This document shows positions 1,458-31,500 of a DNA stretch of 64,000 nt, piece after piece. The stretch is from assembly GCA_948144175.1 (NCBI GenBank), contig CANXME010002284.1, positions 124,001-188,000 of the forward strand, read 5' to 3'. The position numbers and the translations under genes were made by a program. The notes under the pieces are model-generated. The model made no database searches. It saw only the letters and a list, made by a program, of their open reading frames with translations, and was not told the origin of the DNA. Source of the DNA: Closterium sp. NIES-65 (lineage: Eukaryota; Streptophyta; Zygnematophyceae; Desmidiales; Closteriaceae). Position 1 is the first letter of the stretch, and each line of letters starts with the position of its first letter.

Positions 1458-2561
1458 AGGAATCTCTGTTGCACCGCTGTACCATGTGGTTGCAGCTTGC
1501 AGGGGTTAAAATCCCAGAGGTCTATCCGCTGCTTTGTTTAAGCGGCTCCACTGACGAGTGAGGTGTGGGCTGTAGGGCGGCTGAGGGCGGTGAGATGTGG
1601 GTTCTGCACTGCCTGTGCATGAGAGGGATGGGGGGGGGAGCTGCGACAGTGTCGGGGGCAAAGGAGGGATGGAGGGAGAGAGAACAGAAAGAGCGAGAGC
1701 GAGAAAATCAGGGAGTAAGACACTGGGAGGAGAGGGAGGAGAGAGGTGACGTGTGCTTTATAACAAGACACCATTGGTTGGAGGGAGCTGCCTTGAAGAG
1801 TGTTGCCGTGCTGCTCGTCGTGTGTGCTAGCAAGACTCTCGTGTGAGTGAGGCTCTCCTGAGGCACCTCAACAACATGCTCGTCTACGTGCCACGCTGGT
1901 ACCCTGCTGCTGCTAGAGAAACAGCCACTGCTGCTGCTGCTGCTGCTGCTGGAAGGTGTATGGATGTGCGGCAGAGCGTGGTGCTGCTGAATAGCAGCAA
2001 GAGCTGTTCTTGAGTCGTCTCAAGCAAGAGCGGATGGTTGTTAGACCAACATGCGTCTTTGTATTTGCTCTTGAAACTCGTGCGTTCCAGACAAATGGAA
2101 CAGGGCTGGGGGGACAAGGTAGCTTTGATGAAAATAACTGTAGATTACCTGAGGCATCAGGACCTGCGTGGTGGGGAAAGGGTACGGTAGTCTTGAAATA
2201 ACTGTAGACTATGTGAGGCACCAGGGCCTGCGTGGTGGTGTAACTACTGTTTCCAATTCTTTTTTTTTTTTTGGTTCCATGGAAGTGTGCCGCATTCACC
2301 AGCACAGAGCACCCCAGAAATCAAGACTGGGGTGCTTACACATCCCAGCAGCAGTCCCCGATCATTCTAGTAGTAACCATCCTTGCTCTAAAAAGGATGA
2401 TACTGTCACATGCTTTGGGCAAGGGAATCATCAAAGCTTTTTTTCTCCAATATGACAACATGGCACAGCAACGGATAAATCTCTTTACAATCACATGGTA
2501 CGGCGCGACCGTACATTCCTTCACTTGCCAGCACTCTTGAGTCCAGGACTTGGCTGCCCGG
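1458..2561. other. Spacer between two convergent sulfotransferase genes
   Basis: I find no gene here. It should hold the two 3' untranslated regions. It contains a CTG/CAG tract at about 1903-1952, a T11 run near 2260, a short tandem similarity (CTGTAGA...GAGGCA.CAGG) at about 2138-2230, and a palindrome at 2009-2024. No convincing protein similarity was seen in either strand. Confidence 0.6.
2009..2024. repeat. Short palindrome, CTTGAG-TCGT-CTCAAG, flanked by a direct repeat
   Basis: Six-base arms surround a 4-base core. The 9-bp direct repeat AGCAAGAGC lies at 1996-2004 and again at 2023-2031, so the palindrome sits between two copies of the same sequence. It belongs to the TTTTGAG-N4-CTCAAAA family described in the findings. 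Confidence 0.6.
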
Positions 2562-5500
2562 TCATCTGCCCGCCCCCTCTTCGAAGATTCTCCGGAGCTC
2601 CTTGGGGGGAGCGTAGGAGATGTTGTTCAAAGGTGCGTGCATGTCCATGCCGTACACTCGCCTCACAATGTCGTACGTCTCCTGCGGACAAGGGGGGGGG
2701 GGGGGGGGCACAAGCATGTGGTTCTCTTGAATGCGGGTAACGGAGGGTCTGTGCATGTCCATGCCGTACACTCGCCTCACAATGTCGTATGTCTCCTGCA
2801 GATGGGGCACACATCAGCAGGGATGACACGCAAGCAAAGAGTGGAGGGCAGCACGCGCACAAGAGTGAGCGAGCGAGCGTGTCCATGCCGTACACTCGCC
2901 TCACAATGTTGTCTGTTTCCTGGAGCCGACAACCAGGCATGTGAATGGGAGGACTATATTCAAAATGCACGCAGGAGAGGGCCTGTGCCATGTCTATGCT
3001 GTCAACATGTGCCACAATCTCATACGCCTCCTGCAGATGCCACACAAGCAGCCTGAGGGAAGGCAGCGTGAGCACACGAGTGCGCAGGCAGGCATGTGGG
3101 ATTCCAGTGCACGCAGGAGGGTGCGTACTTGTCATTGCTGGCACTCGCCTCACAATCTCTTACCGGTACAACTCCTGCAGTTGACACACAAGCAGCCTGA
3201 CGGGAAGGCATCTGTGCATGAGAGTGAGCAGGCAGACATGTGGGATTCCAGTGTATGCAGGAGGGTGCATACATGTCCGCGCCATACACTCGCCTCACAA
3301 TCTCATACATCTCCTGCAGTTGCCACACAAGCGGCCTGAGGGGAAGGCATCCATGCACGAAGGTGAGCGAGCGGGCATGTGATAGCACCCTGCAATGCTG
3401 CATGCCCCTCACCTTGCTGGTGAACATCTGCAGCATCTGCATCTGCAGCTGCAGCTGGTCTCTGGACTTGGTGGGGTGGATCTTTTTGCCAAAGTCAAAG
3501 GCGTCGCCCGGGTCCCTCCAAAAGGATGTAGCACAGCAATAAGCCTGATATCCACTGTACGTACGAACTTCCCTTCTCTCAGGGAAAGTGAGGCCCTCAC
3601 CTTATTGAACAACTTTAGAAGCTGGTCTCTGGACTTGGTGGGGTGGATCTTCTTGCCAAAGTCAAAGGCGTCGCCCGGGTCCCTCCCAAAGCGGTGCATG
3701 AGGGCCTTCACGTCCGCGTCCATGCTCTCAAAGCGCCCCACGTAGTCGTAGCGTATGCGGTCCAGCCCACACAGGATGTTCTGTGGGTTGCGGGGGGAGG
3801 CGTTAGAGAGGGAAGCAGAGGGACGGAGGGAGGTGGAGCATTGGGAAGGGGGTTCTGATGTGGGAGGGGTGAAGGGGTGTGTGAGGGGAGGAGGCGGTGG
3901 GGAGGGGAGGAGGGGGGTGGAGCACAGAGAAGGGGATTCGGGTATGGAACAACAATGCCTGCTTCCTGAGGGGCAACGTGCAAAGAATAAACACCCGAGG
4001 GAAAAGGTGCAAGCATTAAGCACCTCAGGAGCAAGGGAGAAGGGTGCAAGCGGAGTACCTGGGGGGCGATGTGCTCATCCAGGAACCAGCGCCTGTCCTC
4101 GTCCCAGGCATCCCCCAGCAGTCGCACGAACTCCTCAAACGACAGCAGTCGCCCCATCTCCATCTCTATCTTGTCTTTCCACACCCCCCACCAACTGCTG
4201 CTGCGTTTCCGCCAACCCCCTCCTTCTGCTGCCTCTGCTGATTGTGCCACTGCACCTTCTTCCTCCCCTGCTGCCCCTCCAGCGAAAATATCTCCCTCGT
4301 TTCCCCGATATCTGAGCCGGTCCCTGGCTCGTAGCATCCAAAGCTGCCCGAAAAATCTTCTCGCCCAGAACCGCCGCCCGTAATCCTTGGGGCCGCCGCC
4401 CATCACGTACTTGTTGAGATACGCAGATACGATTCTGGTGAATGGCTGGCGGACGAACACGAACCTGGTGTAGTCGGTTCGGGTGATGGCTCGGATGGCG
4501 TCAGGTTCGGAGAGCGAATACCAGACCTCGGTGATGTTGCTGGTGGCTGGGAGTTGTGCTTCTGGGAACTGGTTGGGGTGGGGGTGGTGGTGCTGCTGCC
4601 GAATCCAAAACTTCCAACTGGTGGATCCGACCTTTTGCAGCTCGCAATATACAAGTCCCACTGTGTCTGATGGGGGTGGGGCGTGGCATGGTGGGAGGCA
4701 AGAGACAGGGAGAGGAGTTGAGTCATCTCACATATTGCTGCTGGCGAATCCAGAACTTCCAACTGGTTGATCCCACCTTGTGTACCTCGCAGTATACCAG
4801 ACCCACTGTGTCTGATGGCGGGTGGGGCGGGGCATGACAATGAACCAAGTTGACTGTTGAGTCAACTCAAAAGTCAACCCAGCTCGTGGGTCGACCTTCT
4901 GTACCTCGCATTATACCAGACTCACTGTGTCTGATAGGGAGGGGGCGTGCATGGTGGGAGGAGAGAGACAGCGAGAGGCAGGGGGAGACAGGAGGAACAG
5001 GAGGAACAGGGGCGACAGAGGGACGGGTGGGTGTGGAGGGAGGGGAGGGAGGGGAGGGGAAGAGTGGGATGTCGTACGAACAGCCAGTCCGACAGCCAGT
5101 CCGACAGCCAGACTGACAGCCAGACTGACAGCCAGACTGACGGCCAGACTGACAGCCAGACTGACGGCCAGACTGACGGCCAGACTGACGGCCAGACTGA
5201 CGGCCAGACTGACGGCCAGACTGTGGGCCAGACGGACAAACCCCTTCCATGATGATCATGGTGATGCATCCAGGCGTGATTGACATGCTACCACTCACCA
5301 TCCGCTATTAGTTGCCTCCCCGTGCGGATTTGAAGGGCTCTTAGAAAGCCTCCTCTCATTGTAAAGAGGATGATCAAGGAGGCCACTCACCATCCACGTT
5401 CAGTTGCCTGCCCATGCGGTGTTTGTGAATCGGCACGATGAACGGCGCATGGCACAACCCACGCTCCTCCTCAAACACTCCACCACTCGCTCTCCCCTCC

Positions 5501-8143
5501 CCACTCCCCTTTGCTGCCCCCTCTCCCTCATTGTCCCCCCCCACAGCCACCGGCACGGGCGCCACACCCCGAGGAACCGTCTCCGGGGCGACCAGCACGT
5601 CGCGCATGCAGGGGGATCTGCCCCTGGCGGAGGCCTGCGCGCGGATGAGGTCCGCCTGGGGGGAGTGCTGCAGGTGAATGAGCCCCTGGGCGGATGCGAG
5701 AGTGAATAGCTCCGCTGCTTCCAGCTGCGCGCATTCTACCCATGCGCCCACCCCTCGCTCCCCCTGCTCCATCCCTTCACTCTCAGCACTCCCGCCACTC
5801 CTGCCACTCCCGTCACTTCCGCCCCTCCCGCCTCCCTCCCTGCCTCCCTCCCTGCCTCCCTCCCTGTCTCTCCCCACCCACCAGCCAAACCACCCAGAAC
5901 TCCTCCTCAGCGCCTCCCGCTCTGCAATCTCCTTCAAAGTGGGTTCCGCGGGGGGCATGGGCGGGGGGAGCGCGTCCCCCCACGCGGGGTTGGGGCGGCA
6001 GAGGGCGGAGCGGCGCAGGGTGGCGCGGAGAAGGTGCGGCTGGCGGTAGGGGTGGAAGGTGTGCGCCACAGCCAGCGCCTGCGACGGCCAGAAACCCGCC
6101 ACTGTAGCGTCGCCTTCGGGCTGCCCGAGAAAAAACCACATGAGGCGGCGGGTGGTGCAGTTGACTGTGTGGTGAGGGTGGCAGCTTGTGCAGAGGGGGT
6201 TGAGAGGGTAGAGGGATACAGGTTCTACGTAGACAGCTGTGCTGTGCTGGACACGTGTCAGGTTCTCGTTGGCTATCAGCTCCTGTACGGCTGTGGACGG
6301 CTGTAGCAGGCTGTAGCAGCGCTGGATGGAGGTGTGAAGCTGGGAGGAATCGTCCACGTCAGCAAGGGTGCTGATAGATGCATCCATAGGCGGGAGGGAG
6401 GAGGAGAGGAAGAATTCGACTTGCAAGGTGCGAGAGGGATGGGCGGCGGGAAGGGGTTGGGAGGAGGAGGGGTTGAACGTGCCAGCCTGCTTTTCCCGTT
6501 GCTGCTGCAGCTGCTCTTGAGATATCGGCTGGGGGACTTCCGAATTGAGGGCCTGTTGGGATGCGCCGTCAAGGTGACAACGTGAGGGGGAAGCGGGAGG
6601 GGGAATGGGGAAACACGATCAGGAATGGGGAAACACGATCAGGAATGGGGAAACGCGATCAGGAATGGGGAAACACGATCAGGAATGGGGAAACACGATC
6701 AGGAATGGGGAAACACGATCAGGAATGGGGAAACACGATCAGGAATGGGGAAACGCGATCAGGAATGGGGAAACACGATCAGGAATGGGGAAACACGATC
6801 AGGAATGGGGAAACACGATCAGGAATGGGGAAACACGATCAGGAATGGGGAAACACGATCAGGAATGGGGAAAGAAGCAGCGTGTGGCGAATGGTGAGCT
6901 GACGGACAACCATGAAGCACTGAAAGAAGAGCTGACAAATGAAGAGCTGACAAAAGAAGAGCTGACGAAAAAACCCATGCGCGAATAGAAACTCATCCGA
7001 TGACGCATACTAATCATCTCTTCTTTGAAAGTACCTACCGCAAAGGTATAAAGCGGCGAGTTGAGCCAACTCGGCCGGTGCTGCAGCACGATCGGCTCGT
7101 CTGAGGCAGCATCAGAATCATCCGCATCCGCCGGGAACAATGGTGGCGACTCCTGCGCCTGAAACTCGCCCTGCTGGCTGCCGCTTTGCGCGGCGCCGAG
7201 CGCGCTCGGGGGAGGCAGAGGGCCCAGCACGTGGCTGAGCGTGGCGTGCGGCATGGCTCGATCCGGCAGCCATAACACGGCCAGCCGCAACGGCCGCTGC
7301 TGCTGCGCCGGTGGCTGTGGTTGCCGCTGCTGGGAAGACGCAGCGTTGGTATAGTCCCAGAGAGTATCTGGGACTCTGGCCGGAGTCAGCTTGGACGACA
7401 GCAGGTGGTGCAGCGCGTACCCTGCGCACACTGCCTCCAGCCGCTTGTGAAGCGGACCCTGGATTTGCGGGATTGCGGATGAGACGGAAAGAGGCGGAAA
7501 TGCCGAATCGGCATGAAAATCACCTCGGAGATTGGATGGTTTTTTGGGAATGGAGCGAGAAAAATGCTTGTGAAGTGGCACGTCATTACCAAGGTTGGAA
7601 GGATTTTAGGGAATGGAGAGAGGGAACATAACTGCAGACTTGAGGAAAAAAACACCCGGAATTCGGGGTTGTGAATGTGAAACGTTTAATTTAACGGCTT
7701 AGAGAAATACCATCTGGATCATTATTGTGATCCGTCATCTTAATACATTTGAATCCTCTTTAGATATTCACTTTAAGACTTGCCTTGGCCCATAAGACGA
7801 CGTCCGGGTGGGAGACGTTGAGGCTTAGGCTTCTAGCTTCCTCAGTCGCCGCGTCTTCTGCTGCCAGTTCCGCAAAAACCGGTGAAGGATTAGAGAAGAT
7901 GAGGAATTGCTGGCCGTCGCCAGAGGCTGTCAGGAATGCTTCGCGCGTTAGGGCTATTGCTACAAAACTGACGACAGTGAGCACTGCAAGGAGTTTCGAC
8001 ACGTGTCGCCACGTCGCATTCTTGGAAAACGAAGCTGCCAGTGAAAATGCACACTTTTCGTAACATAATCGCCGGTCAAGACGGACTCTTAAGGCACAGG
8101 CTAGATCCTTTTCCATAATCGCCCATGGACATGGGAATCTCAT
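2562..8143 (-). CDS. Sulfotransferase (Sulfotransfer_2 type), complete six-exon gene, 947 codons
   Basis: Predicted type II Golgi enzyme transferring sulfate from PAPS to a glycan. My exons on the minus strand are 8143-7784, 7458-7039, 6552-5391, 4660-4059, 3780-3601 and 2681-2562; all phases agree and the total is 2,844 nt. A signal anchor lies near residues 50-66 (LLAVLTVVSFVAIAL). The 5'-phosphosulfate loop is KVGSTSWK at about 657-664, and the 3'-phosphate loop is RQPFTRIVSAY at about 718-728. The C-terminal block ETYDIVRRVYGMD ends the fold. The protein is more than twice the usual family length because of low-complexity stretches between the anchor and the catalytic domain (Q/P-rich about 165-180, E/G-rich about 420-470). 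The first donor is read as a GC donor (AAG|GCAAGT), the least certain junction. ATG 8143 has a second in-frame ATG nine codons on. Confidence 0.8.
2751..3322 (-). repeat. Five decayed tandem copies of sulfotransferase exon 6
   Basis: Copies of the acceptor and about 16 codons of the last exon (ETYDIVRRVYGMDM) lie at about 2751-2801, 2879-2932, 2982-3036, 3126-3180 and 3269-3322, upstream of the intact copy at 2562-2681 in transcription order. Several keep the CAG acceptor but have substitutions such as EAYEIVAHVDSIDM. Spacing is about 107-144 bp. They interrupt the last intron. Confidence 0.85.
3413..3527 (-). repeat. Decayed tandem copy of sulfotransferase exon 5 (3' half)
   Basis: The minus-strand sequence repeats DPGDAFDFGKKIHPTKSRDQL of exon 5 followed by an expanded glutamine/cysteine-like triplet stretch and MFTSK with a GT donor. 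The upstream boundary is abrupt at about 3527. The intact exon 5 is at 3601-3780. Confidence 0.8.
4718..4878. repeat. Two palindromes between tandem copies of sulfotransferase exon 4
   Basis: TTGAG-TCAT-CTCA (4718-4730) lies between the intact exon-4 start (ending 4660) and its first copy (4743-4815). A 30-bp near-perfect palindrome (4849-4878) with arms related to GTTGACTTTTGAGT and its complement lies between the first and the second copy (from about 4870). Both are at duplication junctions. Confidence 0.7.
4743..4940 (-). repeat. Two decayed copies of the 5' end of sulfotransferase exon 4
   Basis: On the minus strand the sequence LVYCEVHKVGSTSWKFWIRQQ is repeated at about 4739-4805, and a more diverged EVQKVDPRAG-like copy lies at about 4870-4918. 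Both retain the CACAG acceptor and the following intron bases. The intact exon begins at 4660. They carry the PAPS-loop coding sequence, so splicing to them could mimic the catalytic loop but would not continue in frame through the fold. Confidence 0.8.
5086..5240. repeat. 12-bp minisatellite in a sulfotransferase intron
   Basis: The unit CCAGACTGACGG (early copies CCAGACTGACAG and CCAGTCCGACAG) is repeated about 12 times head to tail. It lies in the intron between exons 3 and 4. Just beyond it, 5290-5330 is a degraded copy of the exon 3 donor region (intact donor at 5390). Confidence 0.85.
6602..6873. repeat. 20-bp minisatellite in a sulfotransferase intron
   Basis: The unit GGAATGGGGAAACACGATCA is repeated about 13 times, almost perfectly (two copies have GCGATCA). 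There are no spacers, so it is not a CRISPR array. It occupies much of the intron between exons 2 and 3, followed by short GAAGAGCTGACAAA repeats at about 6920-6970. Confidence 0.9.
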
Positions 8144-8807
8144 TAGTATGTAATATCATCAGCTTAGCGTACAATGCAACAGTTTCTTTCCTACTAAAGC
8201 TTCCAAATCACGTCTGTGCAATGACTTCGTTCGCAATGGCCAACTCCTAACCTCCAACGGAACTTCCTCTGAGGTGCCATTGAACATCCCCTCTCTTCCA
8301 AAAATTGCAGATCAAACAACAAGAAGATCCGCCAAGCGAGATGTTCTTGAAGTGAGGTCAGAGCATGCAGCTTGAAAGTCGGTGGGCGATTGTGTTGTGT
8401 TTTGTGCCCGCCCATGAATGTAGCAATCACGATAACTGTTGAAGCAGTTGGGTACAATGTTGTGCATTCTGAAGCGGTTTCCTCGTTTCACCGTCTGGAA
8501 CCGTTTACAACCAGCCTGATTTTTTTTGCATGCATCAGTGTGGGATGTGGATGGGGTGGGAGAGGGGCGGGTCCCCATGGCTTCGGCTCGAGAATCGCGA
8601 CTCGAGATTCAAGGAAAACCTTGACATTTTAGAAACGGATCAGCCAGCGAATCAACAGTGTTACGATGCAAGGCTGTCATACTGATATTCAGATTACATA
8701 TTAAAGAATACAGATAGTATCTCAATAAAGAACACCATCATAAGCACTAGGCTAAAAAATCATAAAGATACACTGAGGACCTTATGCAAGGGTGGAAAAA
8801 AATTGTT
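8144..8807. other. Intergenic region, kinase-like gene 3' end to sulfotransferase start
   Basis: This stretch should contain the 3' end of the kinase-like transcript and the promoter of the sulfotransferase, both on the minus strand. It is AT-richer than the flanking genes. I see no further gene. A CTCGAG-containing imperfect palindrome lies at about 8588-8610. Confidence 0.5.
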
Positions 8808-10295
8808 TCACACATTGGCAGCCACCACTGCAAGTGATGCTTTCAATTGATCGTTGGACAGAGGCTTGGTCATAAATCCATTCATCCCAATTTCCCGGCA
8901 CCTCTTAGGAGCTCCCGCCACAAGATCGGCCGTGATGGCAAATATCGGAACTCGATGCCGACCCACCTGCTCCTCCAGCCGTCGGATTTCGATGGTTGCA
9001 TCATAGCCGTCCATCACCGGCATCTGCAGAGCAACGAGAATGGTTGTGGAGAGACGAGGGATGGAGGACACAGAAGCTGGGAAATGCTCAAATGAAACAC
9101 CTAAAAAGCAGTGTTAGTTGGTGGGAGGTGGGAAGTGGAAGTGGGAAGTGGGAGTGGGAATTTTGAAGTGCTAAGGGGAAGTGGGTGTAGGTGGGTGTAG
9201 ATGGGTAGAAAGCCAGGAGCACACACCTGAAGGTCCATAAAGACGCACACAAACCCGTCCCCTCCACCTCCTTCACCTCCTCCGCCTCCCTCACTCCCCT
9301 CACCACCCCCACCCCCTACACCCGCGTCTCCGCCTTCCTTCATCCCCTCTAAAAACTTCTCCACTGCAACACAGCCATTCTCTGCCTGCACGCCCACCAT
9401 GCCGTACGGCCGTAGCTTCGCCAGCACCACCTTGCGGTTCACCGCGTTGTCATCCACCACAAGTACCCGTCGCCCTTTCAACCGTGCCGTGAGGGTCCTT
9501 GGGGAGAGTGGCGGGGCGGGAGCTTGGCTCGGCTCGTCCACCTGCCCTGCTTGGCTCAGCTCGTCCACCTGCCCTGCTTGATTTGAATCCGCGGAGGAGG
9601 CCTGCGGTGTTTCGGAGGAGGTTTCGCGCGTGGTTTCGGGGGAGATTTGGCCGCCCTGGTGGTGGTTCCCTGTTTCAGACCCTGGTGTTTTGAGGTCCAG
9701 GAGCCCTGGACCCCCCCGCGTCTCCTGCCTTCTTGTCCTCTCTCCCCCCGCGCTGCTACCTCTGTCTTCAGCGGCTCTCCCTGCTTCCTCTCCCACTCGT
9801 TGACCCTCCTGCTCCCTCCTCTCCTCCTCCCTCTCATCACACTCTTCTGCTTCATCATAAATGTCATCAACAGCTATTGCAGCTGTAGCAGCAGCAGTAG
9901 CAGCAGCAGCAAACTCCTCCTGTACCAGGTCAGTCAAGGACGGTGCTGCTGGCAACGGTACAGCCCGTGTTGCTACAGCCCCAGCCACTGGAACCTTAAC
10001 TGCTTCGTGTCCAGCTGAGAAATCCGCTGCAGGCACAGCAGTAGCAGCTGCTGCTAGCTCCCTATAGCTCACCGTGGGAGCAGTGATGTGAGCAGGGGGA
10101 GAGGCGGCAGGCGAGAAAGAGGAGGCGGCCAAGGATGCAGGGAGGGCAGGGCAATGCGTGCATTCAGGTGAAAGAGCAGGTAGAAGATTCTCATCAGGTG
10201 CTGTAGGTGCAACATCAGTAGCTGTGAGAGTGGAAGGTGGAACGCACGCAGAGGAGAAGGGCAAGGAGGAGGGAGAAGAGGACGGGGAAGCGGAA

Positions 10296-10326
<31 letters not shown>

Positions 10327-13300
10327 TGGGGAGAGCAGGGCCCCAGCTATCAGAAGGGGATGGGAACCGGTGCGACTGGGCCTGACTCCTGCTGCTGGCT
10401 GTGCTGCCTGGACTGCTCAAGTACCCATCTGAACCCCTCGTGTACCCATCCGTACCCTTCAAGTTGCTTGAACCTGGAAAGGGCTCCATGCCCCCTTGCT
10501 CCTCAACCACCACCATATCTGGAAACCGCGCTCTGCTTCCCAACCTCTGCTCCCTCACCCTTCCTTCCCCCTCCTCCCCTGACCGCCCCTCCTCGTCTGC
10601 TTCTGCGAACGTCACTCCTCTCGTCCCGCCTCGTCGCCCCGACCAGTCGGCTTCCAGAGTCTTGGCTCGTCTAATCTCCACCTCCTCCCCCCTTTCTGCA
10701 TCCTCTCCCTCCCCCTCTCCCTCTTCCCCTCTCGCCTTTTCGCTCCCATCCTTCACGAATTCCCTTCCTCCTTCATTCCCCTCCCCTCTTAACGCAATTC
10801 CTCCACTCCCCTCTCCTCTCCCACCATCCCCTCCCCACCGTCCACCAATCAGAAGATCCATCTCAGAGGACCAGGAGGAGGGGGTAGCAGCCAACCCACT
10901 CCCAGACACCACCTCCCCTCCACCCCACAAGTCTTCCCCAGCTTTACCCTCCCCAGTTGTACCTCCCCCTACACAAACCTCCCTGCTGCTACCAGCAGCA
11001 CCAGGCATGCCCAGGTGAGAAGCAGAAGGGTACCCTTCCCTCTCCTTTCTCCTCCTCTCCTTCCAACTCTGCAACCCTTTACTGACTGTCCTGCTACCGT
11101 TACTATCACCTGTGGCAGCCCTCGTTATACTCACAGTCCTGCTACCGCTGCTCTCATCCGTAGCAGCCCTAGTCAAACCGATACCGCTACTGCCACCTAT
11201 AGGAGCTTTCGTTTTTATCACAGTCCTGCTACCGCTACTGCCAGATGTAGCCGCTCTTGACATACTGAAACTGCTATCACCCGTTTTACTCACAATCCTG
11301 CTAACGTTACTATTATCTGTAGCAGCTCTAGTCACACTCACACCGCCGAAACCACTGCTGCTATCGCCTGCAGCAACCCTTGCTCCGCTACTATCACCCA
11401 CAACCACCTTCGCTTTACTGACAATGCTGCAGGCAAGGCTGCTGGTGCTGTGACTGCTGCCAATCCGGTACTTGCCCATTCTGCTAAACTTACCACCCCC
11501 AGAACGCTGGCTGCTGCTGGTGTTGCTTGTGCTGCTGGTGTTGCTTGTGCTGGTGCTTCCACCCACCACACCGCTCCCTTGAGCCAACCCCCTGCCACCA
11601 GTGGAACTACTGCTGGTGTAGCCGCTGTCACCGCTCACATACCCAGCGTCACCGCTGACATAACCACCAGCACCACTGGCGTAACCGCTATCACCGCTCA
11701 CGTACCCCACATCCTCTCTTGTTTCAGCAGCAGCAACAGCAGCAGCAACAGCAGCAGTAGCCAGTAGATTCGAACCAGCACTCCTGTCAGGAGAAACAAG
11801 GCCCTGACCATGGGCACTAGAACGTGCACCAGGCCCCTCTCCCTCACTTACACACCCCACAGCCCCAAGAGCCTGGTTACCAGACTGGTTACCAGGTTGG
11901 TTAGCAGGCTGGTTACCAGGCTGGTTACCAGCACCACTGTACCACGCCAGGTTTTGCGGAGACTGGTTACCAGGCTGGTTACCAACATAATCACTATCAG
12001 CCACATGTTGCCCTGCTGGTTCCTCTGCCTGTGCTGCTGCTGCTGATGCAGAGGCAGCAAAAAATCTGGTACCAGCAGCAGGAGGAGCATCCCCAGCATT
12101 ACCACTAACACCAGCATCACCGCCAGCACCAGAGTTGGCAGCAATAGCAGAATAGTCCCCAGCACCACTGGTCTTATCAGTGGTGATACCAGTAGGAGAC
12201 CCAGCCACAACTGCTGCTGCTGCTGCAGCAGAGGCTCTCTTGCCCGACTCCCCCCACCGAGCAGGAGTCAAGGATCGGAACACCGCCCGAACCTGCTGCT
12301 CCACCCTCTGCCGAACCGGGGACGGAAGCCTCGGGAGTACAGACGCTCCTGCCGAACCTGATGCTGCTGCTGCCGCTGCTTCTGCTGCTCCTGCCGCACC
12401 TGATGCTTCAGACGCTGCAGTTGCTTCTGATAAGGCTGCCACGGCTGTTGCCGAAGAAGTTGCTGCTGAAGCTGCCACCTCCAGACCTCCCAGGCCGATT
12501 CCAAACCTAGCTTCTGGGGTCCGAGCCTCTCCTCTGGCTCCTTGCCTCTGGTCTAGCCTCGGACTGACCAAAGGTCTGATAAACGGCCGTGAGAGGCTTG
12601 GAATCGCGCCCACCGAGCCTGAGAACTGGCTCGGAAGGACCTGCTCCCTCATCCCCCGCAGATTCGCTTGCTCCTGCTGCCTCTCCCCCTCCTGCTGCCT
12701 CTCCCCCTCCTGCTGCCTCTCCCCCTCCTGCTGCCTCTCCCCCTCCTGCTGCCTCTCCCCCTCCTGCTGCCTCTCCCCCTCCTGCTGCCTCTCCCCCTCC
12801 TGCTGCCTCTCCCCCTCCTGCTGCCTCTCCCCCTCCTGTTGTCTCCCTCCCTCCTGCTGCCTCCCTCCCTCCTCCTGCATCTGTCCCTCCTGTGCCGGCC
12901 AAGCCTCCTCAGAGCTCTCAGAGCTGCTCCTAGCAGCGCCAACCAGCAACTTCGTTGCCCCCTCCTCCCCAATCCTCCCTCTCCTCTCTATTTCTGGTCT
13001 CAGCACTCCCGCCTCCCCTCCTCTCACTGCGATAACGGGAGGATCATTCGCCCTTGCTCCTGCTGCTACCGCAGCAATGGTCGCTGCTGCAGCAGAGGGG
13101 CTAGCCGAAGGAGGGATGGAAACGAGGCGTGGGGACGAGAGCGCGAGGGAGGATGAGGAGGAGGAGGTGGAAAGAGAACCGGGAGTGAGAGAGGAGGGGA
13201 GAGGGGAGGCAGGGATGGGATGGGGGAGGAGGGAATAGGTGGAAGGAGTGAGAGGAGTGGTGGGAAGGTGGGTGGGAGGGAAGGAGGGGACTGGCAGTGG

Positions 13301-20300: not shown

Positions 20301-22594
20301 GGCGCTTAGGGAATGGCGCCTCGGATGGGGCTTAGGGAATGGCGTAGGAAAGGCCCTCTCGCTTAAGGACTGCCTGCCCGAATCACGTGAGACGGACAGA
20401 ACGAGACAAACAGAAAGACAGACAGGTCCAAAACGAGAGAGTGGCTAACGGCAGTCAGGCTTCTAGTCCTTGCCGTGCTGCTGGCTGCTTCTAGTGCCTG
20501 CCTGCTGCTTCGAGCAGCTTCCCGCTCTTCGACTCCCGCCTGCCGCTTTCTGCAGGGAGCAACCAGTTGGACGCCCGTTTGTTAAAGGCTGTACAGCTGG
20601 CACGGGGCGTGCAAACAAGAGAATTGAGGACCGTTAAAAAGCGTGTGCGTCACGGAACTAGAGAACAGGAAGGCGTGTTCGAGAAGCAACTTCTGGGCTG
20701 GACTGCAGGGCCGAGGCGGGAAACTTCCGCCTTGAAATGGTGGCTGTTATTGCGTCAATTAATGGACGGGCGGGAGGGGAAGAATTAAATGTGACGTGTC
20801 AAGCATGCGGAAAGAAGGACGCTTCGGAAAAAGAAAGGACGTAGCGCGGAGTAAGATTCTTGACGACGCAGTTGATGCGGAAGAGCCGGACGAGTGGCCG
20901 GTATGTGTGGCCCTTGATATAGGGAGGAGCTAGCTGCGGTCGCTGAGATTCGAGCACACAATCAGACTGACGTGGAGTCTAAGCCTGCCCCGCTGTCCTT
21001 CACATGCAGCTGCAGAGCGACCGAGCATGCCGCTGACTACAGCACAGTGAGATCGCACGGAGTCAGATTCGGGGGATCTGAGGGACAAAAGGCGGAGGGC
21101 ATGAGCTACGCTTCCGAATACGCTCGCTTCGATACTCGCTTTAGGGCCGGACCTGGTACCGTACGAAGTCTCGCCATGCCTACGAATCGCAGTCATTACA
21201 ATCGCCGCAAGAAATGTGAACAATTGTGGTGGAACTCTCCTTCGGTAACTTCTGCCTTGAAGACCTTGTTCATCCCATAACTCCCCCTTGGTTCTGTCTT
21301 ACAATCCGTTTATCGTTTATCCGTTTATCAAGAGGGGAATCTTGAGGCTGAAGGGAAGCCTCGAGATGAGACGAGACGAATGGAGGTGTGACTGGGAGAC
21401 AGGAGCTTCCACTTCAGCAGCCGCGTTCTCCCTTCTTGGCCTCGCTGGGGTTACTCCGTGTAATTTTAAATCTGTGAAGTAATTCGCAGACCACATACCG
21501 ACGCCAATTACATTCGCCAAGGTTGTCTACCAGTCGCAGACCAGGCAAGGATGAGGGGCTGCTTTCGCAAAAAACAGTTGTCGCTGCTGACCACAAGAAT
21601 GTTACTGGGAAGGAGGCAAACACGATGCCTGACCGACCAAATGACACGCATGGTGCGGCAAGACATTTTTTGGCATTGACAGCTGACCAGTCATGAACGC
21701 CGCCTTGCACAGTGCATGTATGTACGAATGGATGTCGTCGCGTTGCGAACATACGCCATGACAGAAGGCAGCGCTAATGTAAGTTAGAACCCCATGTGCA
21801 ATCAAAATCAGGGTTTCGATATTGAATTGGAATGAAGCACAGAGAAAGGTTTGGTGAAGGATTAAAATATACAGTTCATACAGTAAATATATGACTACAA
21901 TTATTTGTGAGCTTCCATTCACAATGAATGCTGGCATTTCCAGTTCCAACCTGAAATATCTGTTCTGCCAGAAACTTCACCGGATGGTGTGAAATAACAT
22001 ATGCAATAGTGCAATAAGCACTTAATCTGTAAGAGGAAGAATTGTAGGAGGAAGTGTACTGGCCGCGACAGCAAAAAAGTCGCTCGTCAGATCACTTCCG
22101 GCCCGTCAACCTCCCGCGGAATGGGCGGGTGGGACGTTCATCGAGACTGCCAGTACGCCTTACGGCACACTTGACAGTCAGTATTCGCGCTCTGGGCCGG
22201 AAGTCCACGCTCATCATCCGAGTGGATGACTAGGGCCGTTGTACAGAGGTACAACGAATTGTACGAACTATAGAACAGATCCTGTTCAAGTATAGTCGTG
22301 CTGTTCGGAGCAGAAATTCCAAACTATAATCTGTCGTGCTAACCATTTAAGTGAGAAGTGAGCATTTTTTGGCGACGTGGCCGCTTCAAAGTGTGCCACG
22401 CCTCTCCAGAAACACTTTTCTGAAGGTGCGTGAACGTGCTTCCCTGCACCCATCACCTTGACTGGGCCGACCGACGCACCATAGAAATCCAACTGTCGCC
22501 ATTGTGAAAGTGAATGTGCGCATTGCTAGTGCGCTCCACAATTTCGATACACCAGGAACTAACTCTTGCTGTTTATCTTCCTGTTGAGCCAGCC
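20301..22594. promoter_or_regulatory. Divergent intergenic region between kinase-like and desaturase-like genes
   Basis: This 2.3 kb must hold both promoters and 5' leaders because the genes diverge. I find no convincing ORF, tRNA or repeat family, and no TATA box I would trust. GC-rich CTG/GCC-rich sequence lies at 20460-20560, and an AT-richer block at 21700-22080. Confidence 0.5.
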
Positions 22595-25500
22595 ATGGCG
22601 TCCCTAGGCGGCGCGTGTACTCAGCTTAGACTTCCTGTTCCCGTGTCGCGTGGGCTCACAGACTATCGACCAGTGGTCTACTCGTCTGCAGCACCTTCAC
22701 TGTCTACTTCGAGCGGCGAATTCTCCCGCAATGGGTCCATATTCTCTCAATTGCACTCGTCTCTCACTGTAAACCGCCTTAATGCAAGGCGTTTCTCGCT
22801 CAAATCCAGACGGATAGATCTTAGGCCAGTGAATTACCGGCAGGCCGTCAAAGTGACGGCTACGGGGTTATCCGGTGAGAACGGCAACGCGAACGGCTCG
22901 TTACCGACGGACGCGGAGGGAGCAGCGACGTTGTCGGAATCGCGGAACGAATTGGGCGGCTCGGGAGAAGGCGGCTCGGGAGAAGGCGGCTCGAAGGCGT
23001 CCGTGAATCCGTTGCCAGGAGTGAGCGCGGAAAGCGGCGGCAGTGACGGCAGGAAGGTGGTGGTGATCGGCGCGGGGTGGGCTGGCCTCGGCGCCGCGCA
23101 CCACCTCACGAAGCAGGTGCGCCGCTCTGTCAAATTAGTTGCCGAATTTCACGAAACAACGCCCCGAGTGGAGACTTTGGGATGTGAATCGAAGACGGTA
23201 TTCCGTAGCTTCAAGCATATTCGTCATTGTCGCCACGGTCACTCGTGAGTAGGATTGAAGTAAACTTAGCTATCAGCGCAATTTGCGGCGTGAATTCTGT
23301 CCCCCGTGCTGACGAGGCACGGCGATGACCTGGCAGGGGTACGACGTGACGTTGCTGGAGGCGGGGCGGCAGCCGGGCGGGCTGGTGGCGGGTTGGCGGA
23401 GCGACAAGGGGAAGCCCGTGGAGGTGGGCATTCACGGTGCGTGTGGTGAAGTGCGGTGAAGTGCGCTGAGGGGTGATATACATGGTTGGGGATGGGTGCA
23501 GACGGGTGGAGAGGGGTGGAGACGGATCAGGGGACAATGCTTGGTGGGGTGTGTGACTCATGCAGTGATAGCGGTTCATGAGGGAATGGGATCCGGTGAA
23601 GGTGGGAATTCACGGTGGGTGATGGGGAGAAGGGATGTATGGGGATGGACGAGGAGACGAACTGGTGTGGTGTGGTGTGGTGTGTCTTTGATAAACTGGT
23701 TGCAGTTCATGGCAGAAAGGGCAGCCGGTGGAGGCTGGGGAGTCATGGTGCGGGCACTCTGTCAACTCTTCCCCCTGCCCCCCACCAGGCTTCTGGTACC
23801 CCTATAAAAACATCTTGGCTACAACGGACGAGCTGGGGCTGAAGCCCTTCACTGATACTTGCAAAGTACCATACAATCATGTCAACTCTCTCTCTTTCCC
23901 CCAGGTTTCTGGTACCCCTGTACAAACATCTTCGCGCTAACAGATGAGCTGGGTTCAAAACCCTTTACAGAATGGATGCGCTCGGAAGAGAAAGCACGTG
24001 TCAATTCTCCCCCTCTCCGCCACCCCCACAGGTTTCTGGTACCCCTACAGGAACATCTTCGCACTGACGGACGAGCTGGGCTTAAAGCCCTTCACTGACT
24101 GGACGCTTTCAGCACAGTACTCGCCTGCTGGCGTTCTCACCTGCTCTAGTATCAACCAACCCTCCGATCCACACCTCTCCACTCTTCCCCCCCCCAGGCT
24201 TCTGGTACCCCTACAGGAACATCTTCGCTCTGACGGACGAGCTGGGCTTAAAGCCCTTCACAGACTGGACGCGCTCAGCGCAGTACTCGCCTGCCGGCTT
24301 GGAGGTGGAGTCGCCAATCTTCCAGGACCTGCCCAGATTGCCGTCCCCTCTGGGAACATTTGTCTGGACACAGGTGGGTGACTGGTGGCAGGTGGGTGAC
24401 TGGTGGCAGGTGGGTGACTGGTGGCAGGTGGGTGACTGGTGGCAGGTGGGTGCGTGGTGGCAGGTGGGTGACTAGTGGCAGGTGGGTGCGTGGTGGCAGG
24501 TGGGTGCGTGGTGGCAGGTGCTTGCATCCAACAACAGGGTGGGTGGGTTTGTAGGTGAATCTCAGCGCAGTGCAGTGCAGTACAATAGTACCTTCGGAAG
24601 GTACTGCGGGGCTGGAAGTGGAGTCGCCCATCTTCCAGGACCTTCCGCAGCTGCCGAGTCCTCTCGGCACCTCCGTGTGGACGCAGGTGGGTCAGTTTGG
24701 CATGCAGCAATAGTCAATGCGCGCCTCCGGCTACGTGCGCAGCAGAGTGCTCGCCTGCTGGCGTGGTGTGGAGGTGGAATCACCAATCTTCCAGGACATT
24801 CCGCGGCTGCCTTTTGAGTCGACTCAAAAACCGCGGCTGCCTAGTCCTCTCGGCACCTTTGTCTGGACGCAGGTGGGAGGGTGTCCGTCTGGTGGCAGCG
24901 GGGCAACAGGGTGGGTGAGTAGGTGGGTGGGTGGGTGTTGTCAGCTCAGCGCAGCGCAGTACTCGTGTGCAGGGCTGAAGGTGGACGCAGGTGGGTGACT
25001 GGTGGCAGGTGGGCAACAGAGTGGGTGGGCGCGGGTGGGTATGTGTGTTAGTGTTAGCCTTCAATCTCACACTTTGTACTTTGTATTTTCTATATCCTAG
25101 AGTAGTGTAGTTTGCACATTGTGTTTGGTTGGGTGTACACCTACATCCCAACCAAACCCAAATGTAATCTCCAAGCAATCTCCAACCCACCAATTGGAGA
25201 TTGCCTTGGGATTACCCCCAATCCCTATGGATTGCCCCCGATTCCCTTCCCCATCCATTCCCTCCCCTTCTTGGATGTACTTAAAGAGCTTCAAGCTCAT
25301 TACTAATGTATCGCTTCTAAGCCTAAGTTATGAGAATGTGTGGTCACCTCACCTCACCTCAGCTCAGCTCACCTCAGCTCAGCTCAGCTCAGCTCAGCTC
25401 AGCTCAGCTCAGCTCAGCTCAGCTCAGCTCAGCTCACCTCAGCTCAGCTCACCTCAGCTCACCTCAGCTCACCTCAGCTCACCTCAGCTCAGCGCAGCGC

Positions 25501-28500
25501 AGTACTCGCCTGCTGGCGTGGAGGTGGAGTCGCCCATCTCCCATTGAGGGCCAAGGCTGCCAAGGCTGCCTAGTCCATTGAGGGCACGTTTGTCCGGACG
25601 CACGTAGGCGTGTGGTGGCAGGTGGGTATCAGTGTATGTGTGTGTATGTGGGTATGTGTGTGGGTAGGTGCAGCGCAGTGCAGTACTCGCCTGCTGGCAT
25701 GGAGGTGGAAACCCCATCCTTCCAGGACCTTCGCACACTGCCTAGTCTCATTCGTGTGTGTCATTGCCCCGTCATGACTTTTGAGTCGACTCAAAAGTCA
25801 ACTTGCATGGAGGTGGAATCCCCAATCTTCCAGGACCTTCTCAAACTTGTGCCATTGCCCCGTCATTCGCTGCCTCCCCACGCCCGGCCCCCCCGCCGCC
25901 CTCCCGCCGCTAACCCCCCCCCACTCTTGCTCATTCGCTCCCCTGCAGTTCAAGCGCCTGCCTCTGGCGGACAGGCTGTCAGCGCTCGCCCTCATGTACG
26001 CCAGTGAGTGATCTCCCCCTGCCAGCAGCCAGTGCTGAACTGCCAGCCAGCACAGTGAGTGCTGCGCCGTGCTGCTTGTGTTGACACATCTACCTGAATG
26101 TCGTGCCACACACCCTTCTTCCTGCTGCTGCTTGTGGGTGCCGGCTCTTTTCTTGTGGCCGTTTTAATGTCCCGTTTCTCTGCTCTCTCCCCCTCCTCAT
26201 GTTTATCCCCGTTATAACAACAGTGACAACTCATTCACAACCTCCACACATACATCCTCGTTATTATCGCTCTCTCTTCTATCTTCTACTGTTATACATG
26301 CGTGCCTATCAACAGTGGTTGATTTTGACAACAGTGATGACGCGTGGCGCCGATACGACAGACGTGAGTCCTCGTCCCCCTCAGCCTTCCTTTTCTTCTG
26401 AGAATTCTCAAAAGTAGTTCTCTCTCTCTTCCTTTGACTCAGCATCCGTCTTCCCTCTCTAACCCTCCCTCTTCCCACCTGCCTATCCTTCCCTCACTCC
26501 ATTTGTTCCCTCACTTCATTTGCCGTTTGCTCCTCATGCCCCACACCCACCTTCCGGCACCACACCACACCACTCCGCACCACACTACACCTCATCCCAC
26601 GGCACCGCACTGCACCACACACGCCCTATCCCCTGTTACCCCATGCAGTAACGGCAAGGGAGTTGTTCAAGCAGTATGGGTGCGCGGACCGCGTGTATCG
26701 AGAGGCATTCAACCCCATGCTGCTGGTGGGGCTGTTCGCTCCTCATGGCTCCCAACATACCCACTCACACCGCGCTGCACCGCATTGCAGTGCACCACAC
26801 TGCAACACGCTCTACCCCTATCCCACGCAGTAACGGCAAGGGAGCTGTTCAAGCGGTATGGGTGCACAGATCGGGTCTACAGGGAAGCATTTAACCCCAT
26901 GCTGCTCGCAACTCAGGTCTCCCAACATCACCGCTCACACCTCATTGCACCACACCACACCACACTCTACCCCTAACCCATGCAGTAACGGCAAGGGAGT
27001 TGTTCAAGCAGCATGGGTGCACGGACCAGATCCACAGGGAAGCTTTCAACCCCATGCTGCTCGTGGGGCTGTTTGCTCCTCATGGCCCCCAATTCCGTTT
27101 ACCCACACCACACAACACTGCACCGCACCACACCACACTCAACACCCCTCTACTCCACGCAGTAACAGCGAGGGAGCTGTTCAAGCAGTGTGGGTGCATG
27201 GATCTCGTGTATCGAGATGCCTTCAACCCCATGCTGCTCGTCGGGCTGTTCGCCTCCTCTTGTCCCCTAATCACACCACTCTGCACCACACCACATTGCA
27301 CCACACTCCACCTTTCCCTATCTTGCAGTGACGGCCAGGGAGTTGTTCAAGCAGTATGGGTGCACGGACCGGGTTTACCGAGAGGCATTCAACCCCATGC
27401 TGTTGGTGGGGCTGTTCGCTCCAGGCGAGCAGTGCAGCGCTGCTGCTACTTTGGGAATGCTCTATTACTTCATTCTCGCGCATCAGGTGGGCACCACACC
27501 GCACCGCACTCCACCGCACTCTTATCAACCCCATGCTGCTGGTGGGCCTGTTCGCCCCTGACGAACAGTGCAGTGCCGCTGCTACTTTGGGAATGCTCTA
27601 CTACTTCATTCTCGCGCACCAGGTGCGTGTTTACAAGGGTGGCGGGCGCTAGCAATTAGAATGTTCAAGAGGGTGGGGGCGCACAGTGAGTGAGGCCATC
27701 TTCATCCCCCTTGCATGCACGCAAGGGGGCTTGCTCCCTGTGCATGCACGCAAGGGGGCTTGCTCCCTGTGCATGCACGCAAGGGGGCTTGCTCCCTGTG
27801 CATGCACGCAAGGGGCCTTGCTCCCTGTGCATGCAAGGGGCCTTGCTCCCTGTGCATGCAAGCCCCCTTGCATGCACGCAAAGGCCATCTTCTCTCCTCC
27901 ATCCTCTGTACCTAGTCCCTTTACAACCCCTCTCTCTTCCCACACCAACAGGCTGATTTCCACGTGGTGTGGTGCCGGGGCACAGTAGGCGAGACCATCT
28001 TCGCCCCCTGGATACAAGCCTCCTCCTTTCCCCCTCTTCCCTCCTCCGTCCTCTACACAACTTCTGTCTCTTCCACCACACCTTCAGGCCGAATTTGATG
28101 CGGTGTGGTGCCGGGGCACGGTAGGGAAGACCATCGTTGCCCAGTGACTCAGACCCCCTGTCTCTCCCCGGATCTCTCCCCTTCCACTCACAGGCCGACT
28201 TTGATGTGGTGTGGTGCCGGGGCACAGTAGGCGAGACCATCTTCGCCCCTTGGATCCAAACCATGGAAGCTTCTGGGAACTTCCGCTTCCTGCCCAACCG
28301 ACGCGTCACAGGTGGGCGACGTAGGGTGCGGGTGCTGAGAGGCGGGGGGGAAGGTGGGTAGGAGAGAGGAGTTCTGAGACGTCTCAAAAGCTGACGCGTC
28401 ACAGGTGGGTGACGTGGGGTACGGGTGCTGAGAGGCGGGGGGAGAATGTGGGGGGGAGAGAGGAGGGGGCTGTGGATAAGGGAATTATTGCGCCGTTGAC

Positions 28501-31500
28501 AGCTGAGGGCTGAGGGGTTGCGTGCCAGGCATTTCGCAGCAATGTTCAGTGGTTGAGAGGTGTGTTATGGACGCCTACTGGCGTCATCTTTGAGAATTCT
28601 CTAGTGGCCTTCTCTATGTGGCCTTCTCTCTCTATGTGGCAACTCCTCCTTCCATCTCTTCCCCCTCGCCGCCTCCCTCCTGTGCCAGACATTGCAACGG
28701 CTGAGGACGATCCGGACAGAGTCACAGCGGTGGTGTGCGGTGACGAGGTGTTTGCGGCGGATGCAGTGGTGTCAGCAGTGGGCATCTCAGGCCTCAAAAA
28801 CATTGTCGCTTCGAGGTGAGTTGAGTCAATTTCGGCGCTGCCTTTAGGTGAGTGGTGCTGCACGGTATGTCCAGGTGAAAGGTAACCGCAGCGTGTGTGC
28901 AGCGCATGCAGTGGTGTCAGCAGTGGGCATATCAGGCCTCAAGAACATCGTCGCTTCGAGGTGAAAGCTGCTGAGGCCAAGACGTAAAGGCAAAATGCCT
29001 TCAGACATATTCCCAGCGAGCTGCAGACTTAACGAGTCGACTGAAAACACGGCTCCAGAGGCCAAGAGGTAAAGTCAAACTGCACGAAAGTACATTGTGT
29101 TGAGACTTCCCATGACACGTTCACATTGTTGCGTGGAGGTGCGAGGCCAAGATGCCAAGACAAACTGCGTGTAAGTAACCGCTGTGCTTCTTTTCGAGAC
29201 GTTTCACATTGTCGGCTCTGGGTGATTGTTTTTGAGGCCCAAGTGCAGAGACGAACCGCTGTGTCCAGGTGTGTATTGCCAGGCTATGCTGCCTTTTGGG
29301 TACCTCATGCGTAACCCCCCCTTCTCCTTCCCACCCTCCTCTCCCTCTCGCCCCTCTCCTCTCGCCCCTCTCCCCTCGCCTGTGCATTGCCCCCACCTCC
29401 TCAGCCCAGCACTGTCCAGCAGGAAGGAGTTTCTCTGCATGGCGAGTCTGTCTCTAAGGCGCCTTCAAACAACCGCCCTCTTTGTCTTCACTCTGCTCTC
29501 CCTCTCGCCCCTCTTCTCCCCCCTCTGCTGCCCCCACCTCCTCAGCCCAGCGCTGTCCAGCAGGAAGGAGTTTCTGGGCGTGGCGAACCTGGGTGCAATT
29601 GATGTGCTGGCAGTGCGGTTGTGGCTCGACAGGAAGGTGCGTGGAGGGGTGCAGTGCGGTGAGGGGGTATGCTGAGAGGTGCTGTGAGTTGCCTTGACCA
29701 TGTTATTCGGAGGCTATCGATGTGCTGGCAGTGCGGCTGTGGCTGGACAGGAAGGTGCGGTGAGAGGGTATGCTGAGGGGTGCAGCGCGGTATTTAGATA
29801 TTGGAATCTGGGGGCCATCGACGTGCTGGCAGTGCATTTCTGGCTCGACAGGAAGGTGAGAAGGGCAGTGCAGTGCAATGCGGCGAGGGGGTGTGCTGAG
29901 GGGTGCAGTGAGGTGCTTAGGCATTGGAATCTGGGGGCCATCGGTGGACTTGCAGTACAGGAGAGAAGGGGTAGCAGTAGGCCCGCTCGTGCAACTTTTG
30001 AGGCGCCTCAAAAGCCATCGACGTACTGGTAGCAAAGGAGAAAGGGGTAGCAGTAGGCCCGTTTGTGCAGGGCAAAGCAGGACTTGATCCCAAGCGACCT
30101 TCATTCCTCAAGCAATCTTCGCTCCCGCTGCCTCCTGCCATGCAGATCAGCATCCCCAAACCGTCCAATGCGAGCTTCGGCTTTGATGAGACAACGGGGT
30201 GGGCATTCCAGTGAACGTGTTCCTCTCGCCCCATGTTCTTCCCCTCCTTCCCCTCCATGCCCGCTCCTCTCACAGATCACCATCCCCAAGCCATCCAACG
30301 CGTGTTTCGGTTTTGACGAGACAACAGGGTGGACCTTCTTTGATCTCAACGCCATTCACGATGAGTACAAGGACGAGCCCTGCACCGTCGTTGAAGCAGA
30401 CTTTGTGAGTCGCCTTTTGACCCTCATTAACCCTTGTTGACCCTCATTAACCCTTGTTGACCCTCATTAACCCTTGTTGATCCTCATTAACCCTTGTTGA
30501 CCCTCATTAACCCTTGTTGATCCTCATTAACCCTTGTTGATCCTCATTAACCCTTGGTGACCCTCATTAACCCTTGTTGGCCCTCATTAACCACCGCCAC
30601 CGCCACCGCCACCCCCACCGCCACCGCCACCTCCACCGCCACCGCCACCGCCACCACCACCGCCACCGCCACCGCCACCTCCACCTCCACCGCCACCGCG
30701 ACCGCCACCGCCACCGCCACCGCCACTGCCACCTCCACCGCCACCGCCACCGCCACCGCCACCGCCACCGCCACCGCCACCGCCACCGCCACCGCCACCG
30801 CCACCGCCGGTACCAGGCGAACCAGTATTTGCCCAAGTCAGACAAGCCCATTGCCTCTCAGCTCAGAGCTGCACCACGCTCACCCATACTCCTGGTCACT
30901 CCCTGTCAGTCACTCCCTGTCATTCCGTGTCACTCCCTGTCACTCCCTTTCACCCCTTCAAACCCCCCACCACCACCAGCAGTACCACGCAAACCTGTAT
31001 CTGCCCATGTCAGATGAGGCGATAGTGGCAACGGTCATGCGTTACCTCGCCACCTTCATGCCTGCGCAACGCTGCCTCTTACTCACCACTGCTCCCTGTC
31101 TCTCCCCATCGCTCCCTTTCACTTCCTATCACTCCCTGTCACCGCATTCGCCAGTACCACGCGAATCAGTATCTGCCCATGTCAGACGGGGCAATAGTGG
31201 CAACGGTCATGCGCTACCTCTCTTTCCCCCTACCCACACACACTCCTCCCCTATCCATCCCCCCTTTCCCACAGTACCACGCGAATCAGTATCTGCCCAT
31301 GTCAGACGGGGCAATAGTGGCAACGGTCATGCGCTACCTCGCCACGTGCATCCCAGCTCTTGATTGAAGCAACCCCTCTTGCTCTCTGCTCTTCCCTGCT
31401 CTCCCCTGATCCCCCCGCTCAACCCTCCTCCCCCACAACCACCAGTACCACGCGAATCAGTACCTGCCCATGTCAGACGAGGCAATAGTGGCAACGGTCA

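Follow-up and report, generated by a model that had tools for sequence, protein, structure and literature searches.

Short palindromes with conserved stems and variable loops occur as families of intergenic repetitive or double-hairpin elements in fungal and sponge mitochondria, where they have been argued to be mobile (extracts of PMC2800124 and PMC7218506). The organelle genomes of the green alga Volvox carteri contain palindromes of 11–79 nt, and copies of these in the nucleus have been attributed to the transfer of organelle DNA (extract of PMC2670323). Small tandem duplications arise when staggered breaks are filled in by CST–Pol alpha-primase and joined by non-homologous end joining (NHEJ) (extract of PMC8355091), and foldback synthesis at breaks in yeast produces templated insertions in the form of inverted duplications, most of which are approximately 5–34 bp in length (extract of PMC11724301). 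Here, we describe a family of palindromes with the 18-bp core TTTTGAG-N4-CTCAAAA, recognized in a 64-kb stretch of DNA from Closterium sp. NIES-65 (hereafter the window; G000:C1986:124001-188000) and traced through the assembly of that genome (874,075,685 bp in 2,400 contigs), in which it is frequently enclosed by direct duplications of the host sequence.

The Closterium family resembles the organellar hairpin elements in that short palindromes share a conserved stem. However, those elements occur in tens of copies (PMC2800124, PMC7218506, as extracted), whereas the Closterium palindromes are nuclear and number tens of thousands, and their centre is itself self-complementary, unlike the variable loops of the organellar elements. 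The Allomyces elements are without flanking duplications in the extract of PMC2800124, whereas the Closterium palindromes often have long direct duplications of variable length. With the palindromes of V. carteri, the family shares a host in the green lineage and the presence of nuclear copies; in contrast, the Volvox palindromes have loops of 3–5 nt, often TAAA or TTTA, and an AT-rich organellar source, and their nuclear copies, found in a total of 65.4 kb of nuclear sequence, were judged inert, with no mention of a tie to tandem duplication in the extract of PMC2670323. Like the duplications formed by fill-in, the direct copies in Closterium are variable in length and flush with the junction (56/90 sites), but the fill-in duplications have no conserved junction sequence in the extract of PMC8355091, whereas the junction filler in Closterium is conserved in 30,327 exact copies. 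The yeast foldback insertions are copied from the local flank and form no family (extract of PMC11724301), whereas one core recurs throughout the Closterium genome. A high copy number is shared, according to published extracts, with miniature inverted-repeat transposable elements (MITEs) in non-coding DNA and with introners in genes. MITEs and introners have target duplications of fixed size and conserved ends, whereas the Closterium family has a conserved centre and a free duplication size, and a palindrome of 18–54 bp would be short for an intron. No comparable nuclear family was recognized among the titles and abstract openings that searches of open-access papers listed, and the string “palindrom” is absent from the text of PMC10407611.

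The 874-Mb nuclear genome contained 30,327 exact matches to TTTTGAG-N4-CTCAAAA, whereas approximately 3 are expected by chance from the 14 fixed bases, and the control AAAACTC-N4-GAGTTTT, a reversed pattern that is also palindromic and equal in composition, matched 4 times (a ratio of approximately 7,600). With up to two mismatches, the numbers were 74,982 and 3,589, respectively. A chance origin was rejected on these counts, and the expectation of the preliminary description, made from the window alone, that the palindrome exceeds its frequency by base composition was borne out. The exact copies fell into classes with the centres TCGA (13,080), GCGC (5,851), ACGT (5,047), and AATT (2,601), each with 0 matches in the control. 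Because these four self-complementary tetramers account for 26,579 of the 30,327 exact copies (87.6%), a random four-base loop was also rejected. Among the matches listed, the further centres TTGA, TCAA, ACAT, and AATC were each one transition away from a main centre. The palindromes ranged from 18 to 54 nt in length. The family was spread over many contigs, the sampled loci of at least 3 kb had a GC content of 49–59%, and the window contains split genes together with retrotransposon-like frames; the family is therefore nuclear and not organelle-resident. A viral or bacterial source was rejected, and the palindrome is no general motif: TTTTGAGTCGACTCAAAA had 0 matches in the IMG/VR viral contigs, as did the reversed-arm palindrome, and TTTTGAGACGTCTCAAAA had 1, in a scan that covered two of the four cores, while a 257-Gb prokaryote set contained 4 stretches with TTTTGAGTCGACTCAAAA, against 3.7 by chance.

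The surroundings of the palindromes were compared in 20 stretches of 10 kb (17 picked for matches and 3 blind) and 60 stretches of approximately 0.5 kb around 20 AATT, 20 ACGT, 18 GCGC, and 2 TCGA matches, with random points drawn from the larger loci and the first 34 kb of the window; sites less than 160 bp from another (arrays) or less than 215 bp from a locus end were excluded. Direct copies enclosing a unique filler were found at 56 of 90 isolated sites (62%) and at 163 of 5,000 random points (3.3%), a 19-fold difference (odds ratio 49, Fisher P = 4e−56, with the sites treated as independent). The 90 sites include a near-identical second copy (L080) of the window site 29996, which is hence not independent, and may include other near-identical pairs of this kind; conversely, window site 24812, whose copies of 11 bp lie below the duplication threshold, was scored as a miss. 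When the unique-filler rule was dropped, the counts were 57/90 and 653/5,000. The excess of direct duplication in the flanks that had been proposed was thus confirmed, with flanked sites in every class (TCGA 18/26, ACGT 13/21, GCGC 11/20, AATT 11/18, and other centres 3/5). In a smaller set at the lowest threshold, 13 of 32 isolated sites were flanked, compared with 3.3% of random points; another rule, used with no random control, gave 43/57 and is not the figure relied on. In the blind loci, one site was present at up to two mismatches (L024), and it had no duplication. At the 56 flanked sites, 16–145 bp of host DNA was duplicated (median 46 bp), as exemplified by the 60-bp copies at L010:4299 and the 23-bp copies at L011:7337, both 100% identical, the 47-bp copies at L025 around AAATCAC-core-GTGATTT, and the 44-bp copies at L016:3827 around GAGTGAC-core-GTCACTC. 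The two flanking copies were 71–100% identical (median 94%) and at least 99% identical at 13 of the 56 sites, which, if the palindromes arrived by insertion, suggests that insertion has been long-running and includes recent events. Because the copies are often diverged, down to the lowest value of 71%, a sequencing or assembly artefact was rejected, and the recurrence of the palindromes in a second gene copy with differences of its own further rules it out. Tandem arrays of constant period (37, 42, 53, 63, and 64) also occurred.

In the window, six matches with at most one mismatch were found (4855, 24812, 25779, 26396, 28372, and 29996); none lies beyond 30.1 kb, and their positions are those given in the preliminary description for its well-preserved copies. 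Up to three mismatches gave 8 matches against 1.75 expected, a number reached in 0 of 100 shuffles. Full self-complementarity, which the search pattern does not demand and which has a chance of 1/16 for each centre, was seen in five of the six (TCGA, TCGA, AATT, ACGT, and GCGC); the sixth centre is TCAA. The palindromes had been placed at the junctions of tandem duplications, and this stands for five of the six strong sites. Both copies lie 0–1 nt from the palindrome at 25779 (81/64 bp), 28372 (71/72 bp), and 29996 (56/55 bp); at 4855 (78 bp), the right copy is flush and the left copy stops 12 nt short; and at 24812, an 11-bp copy of CCGCGGCTGCC could be read directly from the sequence on either side. 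In contrast, no direct copies flank 26396. Of the six weak sites, 29452 alone is placed exactly between copies, at a distance of 1 nt from either one; 4718 (23 and 3 nt away) and 28821 (1 and 35 nt away) are close to copies, and 29029, 29191, and 2009 have no exact junction. The spacer array at 28.95–29.3 kb was also aligned, but its weak motifs line up poorly, and no conclusion was drawn from them.

The strong palindromes lie in two split genes of this eukaryotic stretch. The first had been called a sulfotransferase, a label that Pfam confirms (Sulfotransfer_2, 3.9e−18), whereas the second, described as a desaturase, encodes an oxidoreductase of the FAD amine-oxidase family (Amino_oxidase, 1.2e−9). 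The oxidoreductase gene is very rich in tandem duplication: by loose scoring, one-third of the positions at 22.5–31.5 kb have an overlap score of at least 30. A stricter scan for flush copies with a unique 18-bp filler was satisfied at 171 of 9,000 positions in the same interval; it picked up 28372, 29996, and the weak site 29452 and missed 25779, 24812, and 4855, which have a wider insert or a short target copy. Because this gene is so full of duplications, the association of the palindrome with duplication is not provable from the window alone, and it is the genome-wide comparison above that carries it.

Sequences related to two of the flanked sites contain the target once. The exon copies at 24270 and 24586, siblings of the copy interrupted at 24812, have the same sequence with a single target copy and no palindrome. 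Likewise, when L010:4299 was aligned with a diverged exon copy at L010:4537-4599, the exon copy lacked the palindrome and had the 60-bp target in single form, flanked to the left and right by related sequence. The oxidoreductase gene recurs on contig C28 (L086, C28:109001-117500), where it is 99.3% identical over the aligned bases to 23.3–31.5 kb of the window. This second gene copy carries an additional exon copy of 136 bp and an additional stretch of 36 bp, neither with a palindrome, and its right copy at 25779 exceeds that of the window by 17 nt, indicating that the duplication there was formerly more complete.

The palindromes are symmetrical beyond their core, and the symmetry is particular to each copy. 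Read toward the core, the majority bases of the flanks were AG(G/T)TGAC in the TCGA class, AGnCGAC in the GCGC class, and GRRRTGRY in the AATT class, and the arm of the ACGT class consisted of CACGTG followed by 12 purine-rich bases. CACGTG-N12-TTTTGAGACGTC occurred at 1,120 half-sites with a spacing of exactly 12 nt (control 0), and recurring lineages of the 12-base arm, such as AAAGAAGGAGTG, TTTGAAGAAGTG, TAGAGAGGGTGT, and others, were present among the matches listed. The conserved outer block was noted in the ACGT class only and is often absent from one side. Although the outer arms vary between copies, they pair with their own partner above chance: an arm-match gain of at least 7 was found at 13 of 114 sites, against 1.9 after the right arms had been re-paired within each class, and a gain of at least 5 at 22 of 114, against 5.2 (centre classes with fewer than 3 members, comprising 8 of 122 sites, were dropped). 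The lengths of the left and right arms were uncorrelated (r = 0.07, 56 sites), and a one-base overlap at the junction was present at 23 of the 56 sites, a count without a control. Of the 173 TTTTGAG words in the 20 loci, 144 could be paired with a partner arm at up to 3 mismatches, in a tally to which each complete palindrome contributes two words. In 50 cases, the GAC of the ACGT half-unit did not continue with G; 41 of these read GACA, as expected from CpG decay. As single strands, four example palindromes fold into near-perfect hairpins. Since centre and arms co-vary, one half appears to be the genetic unit from which both halves are copied.

These features lead us to lean towards a family of very short, mobile palindromes of high copy number that are built in through a symmetrical intermediate when a staggered break is repaired, a reading that seems to us reasonably probable. 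Each element would consist of two identical half-units (outer arm, TTTTGAG, and two bases) placed tail to tail. The element (E) would enter during the repair of a break whose single-stranded ends are long and staggered; the filling in of both overhangs would create two direct copies of the host target (A-E-A), bridged by a half-unit in the form of a hairpin or self-dimer. As a single half-unit would provide both arms, symmetry would be restored at every insertion, and because of this common supply the subfamilies could diverge in centre and arms while remaining palindromic. Later unequal exchange between the target copies would yield tandem arrays of target and element with constant periods. 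Staggered-end fill-in and end joining are suggested by the flush direct duplications of variable length (cf. the extract of PMC8355091), and a symmetrical intermediate is favoured because an element copied whole as double-stranded DNA would not keep its mutated copies symmetrical. We tentatively prefer a half-unit captured as ready-made hairpin DNA to one written from a template onto the broken ends.

Writing from a template is nevertheless the basis of the rival that survives best. To each filled-in end of a staggered break, an enzyme might add a templated 3′ tail (arm, TTTTGAG, and four self-complementary bases); the identical tails would pair by the four bases and be ligated, so that a ready-made palindrome would never move, and the template RNA would have the 5′ end NNNNCUCAAAA. 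Such tailing and annealing accounts for the self-complementary tetramers at the centre, for an inner end that is fixed while the outer arms start independently, and for the scarcity of unpaired half-units, and it would account for the one-base overlaps at the junctions. However, it requires many templates, since the common centres number four and the matches listed include dozens of N12 arms, and neither the template RNA nor the enzyme is known; we regard it as rather unlikely. A dedicated break-sealing process, in which a templated half-unit is placed on both staggered ends and joined by its self-complementary four-base end into a palindromic seal, is in our view also doubtful; if true, it would amount to a repair system with a sequence memory, or to the smallest self-propagating element known to us, with a core of 18 bp and a symmetry that it would restore itself whenever it inserts.

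The inverted repeats, the high copy number, the subfamilies, and the outer CACGTG block conserved in the ACGT class are also what an ordinary MITE would offer, one with long terminal repeats that had lost its internal part and was moved by a transposase. Target-site duplications made by transposases are fixed in size and MITE ends are conserved, whereas the duplications here (16–145 bp, and 11 bp at 24812) have no fixed size, the outer ends are ragged independently on the two sides, and the centre is conserved instead of the ends, which makes this explanation improbable. Short palindromic repeats of mitochondria or plastids could have been captured as filler in nuclear breaks, and the organelles of green algae do have mobile short palindromes with nuclear copies (extract of PMC2670323); this is nonetheless very improbable, as the best-resolved inserts comprise the palindrome, its arms, and little else, although other organelle sequence would be expected, and the copy number is far above that of organelle palindromes. 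Finally, short inverted repeats are reported to be mutational hotspots (extract of PMC12562434), but the idea that a pre-existing palindrome was a fragile site, where hairpin cutting and misrepair duplicated the adjoining DNA, is barely credible, because it predicts P-A-P-A or A-P-A-P orders (P, palindrome; A, adjoining DNA) where 56 of 57 flanked sites have a unique filler, because the sibling empty sites of 24812 and L010:4299 have no palindrome, and because it leaves unexplained why a single sequence is present in tens of thousands of copies.

Several observations weigh against insertion with target duplication as we favour it. By the criteria used, 34 of the 90 isolated copies had no duplication, and a palindrome could in principle have entered a pre-existing duplication. 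No presence/absence allele was found between the window and C28, all five oxidoreductase palindromes being common to both gene copies, and of two more near-identical copies of the L010:4299 stretch, the palindrome was seen in one. At the position of the 24812 insert, the exon copy at 25492 shows 9 bp duplicated and no palindrome, through either loss of the palindrome or an independent slip. Unpaired half-units exist: 454 instances of GGTGACTTTTGAGTC, the half-unit GGTGAC-TCGA, do not continue with G, an absolute number not set against that of GGTGACTTTTGAGTCGAC and confined to half-units of this kind, and 40 of the 100 matches listed belong to a 19-bp satellite on C531. The 18-bp core is mostly intact at the sampled sites, with truncated cores present at L078 and L081; as most sampled loci were selected by the core, truncation within it is under-sampled and its completeness is partly a product of selection. 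Of 79 local direct-repeat junctions in the first 34 kb of the window and the 30 kb of blind loci, only 5 hold the core, so other causes of duplication exist. The suggestion in the preliminary description that one mechanism both inserts the palindrome and duplicates its target therefore holds insofar as a recurrent sequence accompanies direct duplication of the target, and is not supported as a general cause of the tandem duplications, as the exon copies at 26.6–27.4 kb, which are without a palindrome, also illustrate.

With a core of 18 bp, more than 30,000 exact copies, near-constant symmetry, and a link to duplication, the family challenges the notion of the smallest mobile unit. Its palindrome serves as a readable tag of microduplication, which marks the event, its approximate size, and, through the divergence of the target copies, its age, and by which staggered-break repair becomes testable from sequence. 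Strains of the Closterium complex differ more than 2-fold in genome size (extract of PMC10407611), and, if the host belongs to that complex, the tag offers a handle on the build-up of small duplications in such genomes. The coordinates of the palindromes and their flanking copies in the window are compiled in Table 1.

Table 1. Palindromes of the TTTTGAG family and adjoining direct copies in the window
Feature	Position	Remarks
Palindrome GTTGACTGTTGAGTCAACTCAAAAGTCAAC	4849..4878	TCGA class; centre TCAA, one transition from TCGA
Right direct copy, flush with the 4849 palindrome	4879..4978	Sulfotransferase exon-4 copy; others at 4614-4715 and 4736-4836
Weak palindrome AGTTGAGTCATCTCACAT	4716..4733	Between copies 4591-4690 and 4736-4836 (23 and 3 nt off)
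Left 11-bp target copy CCGCGGCTGCC	24801..24811	Within a decayed exon copy
Core palindrome TTTTGAGTCGACTCAAAA	24812..24829	Pattern match and sibling-exon alignment
Right 11-bp target copy	24831..24841	Sibling exon copies 24270 and 24586 without palindrome and repeat
Left direct copy, 81 bp	25694..25774	Flank alignment
Palindrome TGACTTTTGAGTCGACTCAAAAGTCA	25775..25800	Flank alignment
Right direct copy	25802..25865	Second gene copy (contig C28) has a further 17 nt here
Palindrome CTTCTGAGAATTCTCAAAAG	26395..26414	AATT class; no direct copies found alongside
Left direct copy, 71 bp	28300..28370	Exon end and intron start, by reading
Palindrome GTTCTGAGACGTCTCAAAAGC	28371..28391	ACGT class; pattern match and flank alignment
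Right direct copy	28393..28464	Flank alignment
Degenerate core CTCTAAGGCGCCTTCAAA	29452..29469	Between copies 29313-29450 and 29471-29591
Left direct copy, 56 bp	29938..29993	Flank alignment
Palindrome CTTTTGAGGCGCCTCAAAAG	29995..30014	GCGC class; second gene copy holds the same at C28:115982
Right direct copy	30015..30069	Flank alignment

Other features of the window lie outside the family. The second half contains long frames resembling retrotransposons, which we read as copia- and DIRS-like, and the sole Pfam match there, RT_RNaseH, was below the cut-off. In the oxidoreductase gene, five tandem copies of an exon-containing stretch occupy 26606-27406, with junctions that lack the core. A different short palindrome, AGTACCTTCGGAAGGTACT, is present in one exon copy only (24587-24605) and may have been templated from local sequence, and one intron contains adjacent inverted repeats (25164-25215 and approximately 25123-25157), perhaps another small element. 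Elsewhere in the genome, minus-strand matches at C531:237079-237854 form a satellite of period 19 with at least 40 copies of the half-unit GGTGACTTTTGAGTCT, one of them with GTCC. At L012:8185-8448, the GCGC core, for the most part in degenerate form, makes up a 24-bp satellite, which suggests that satellites can arise from cores.

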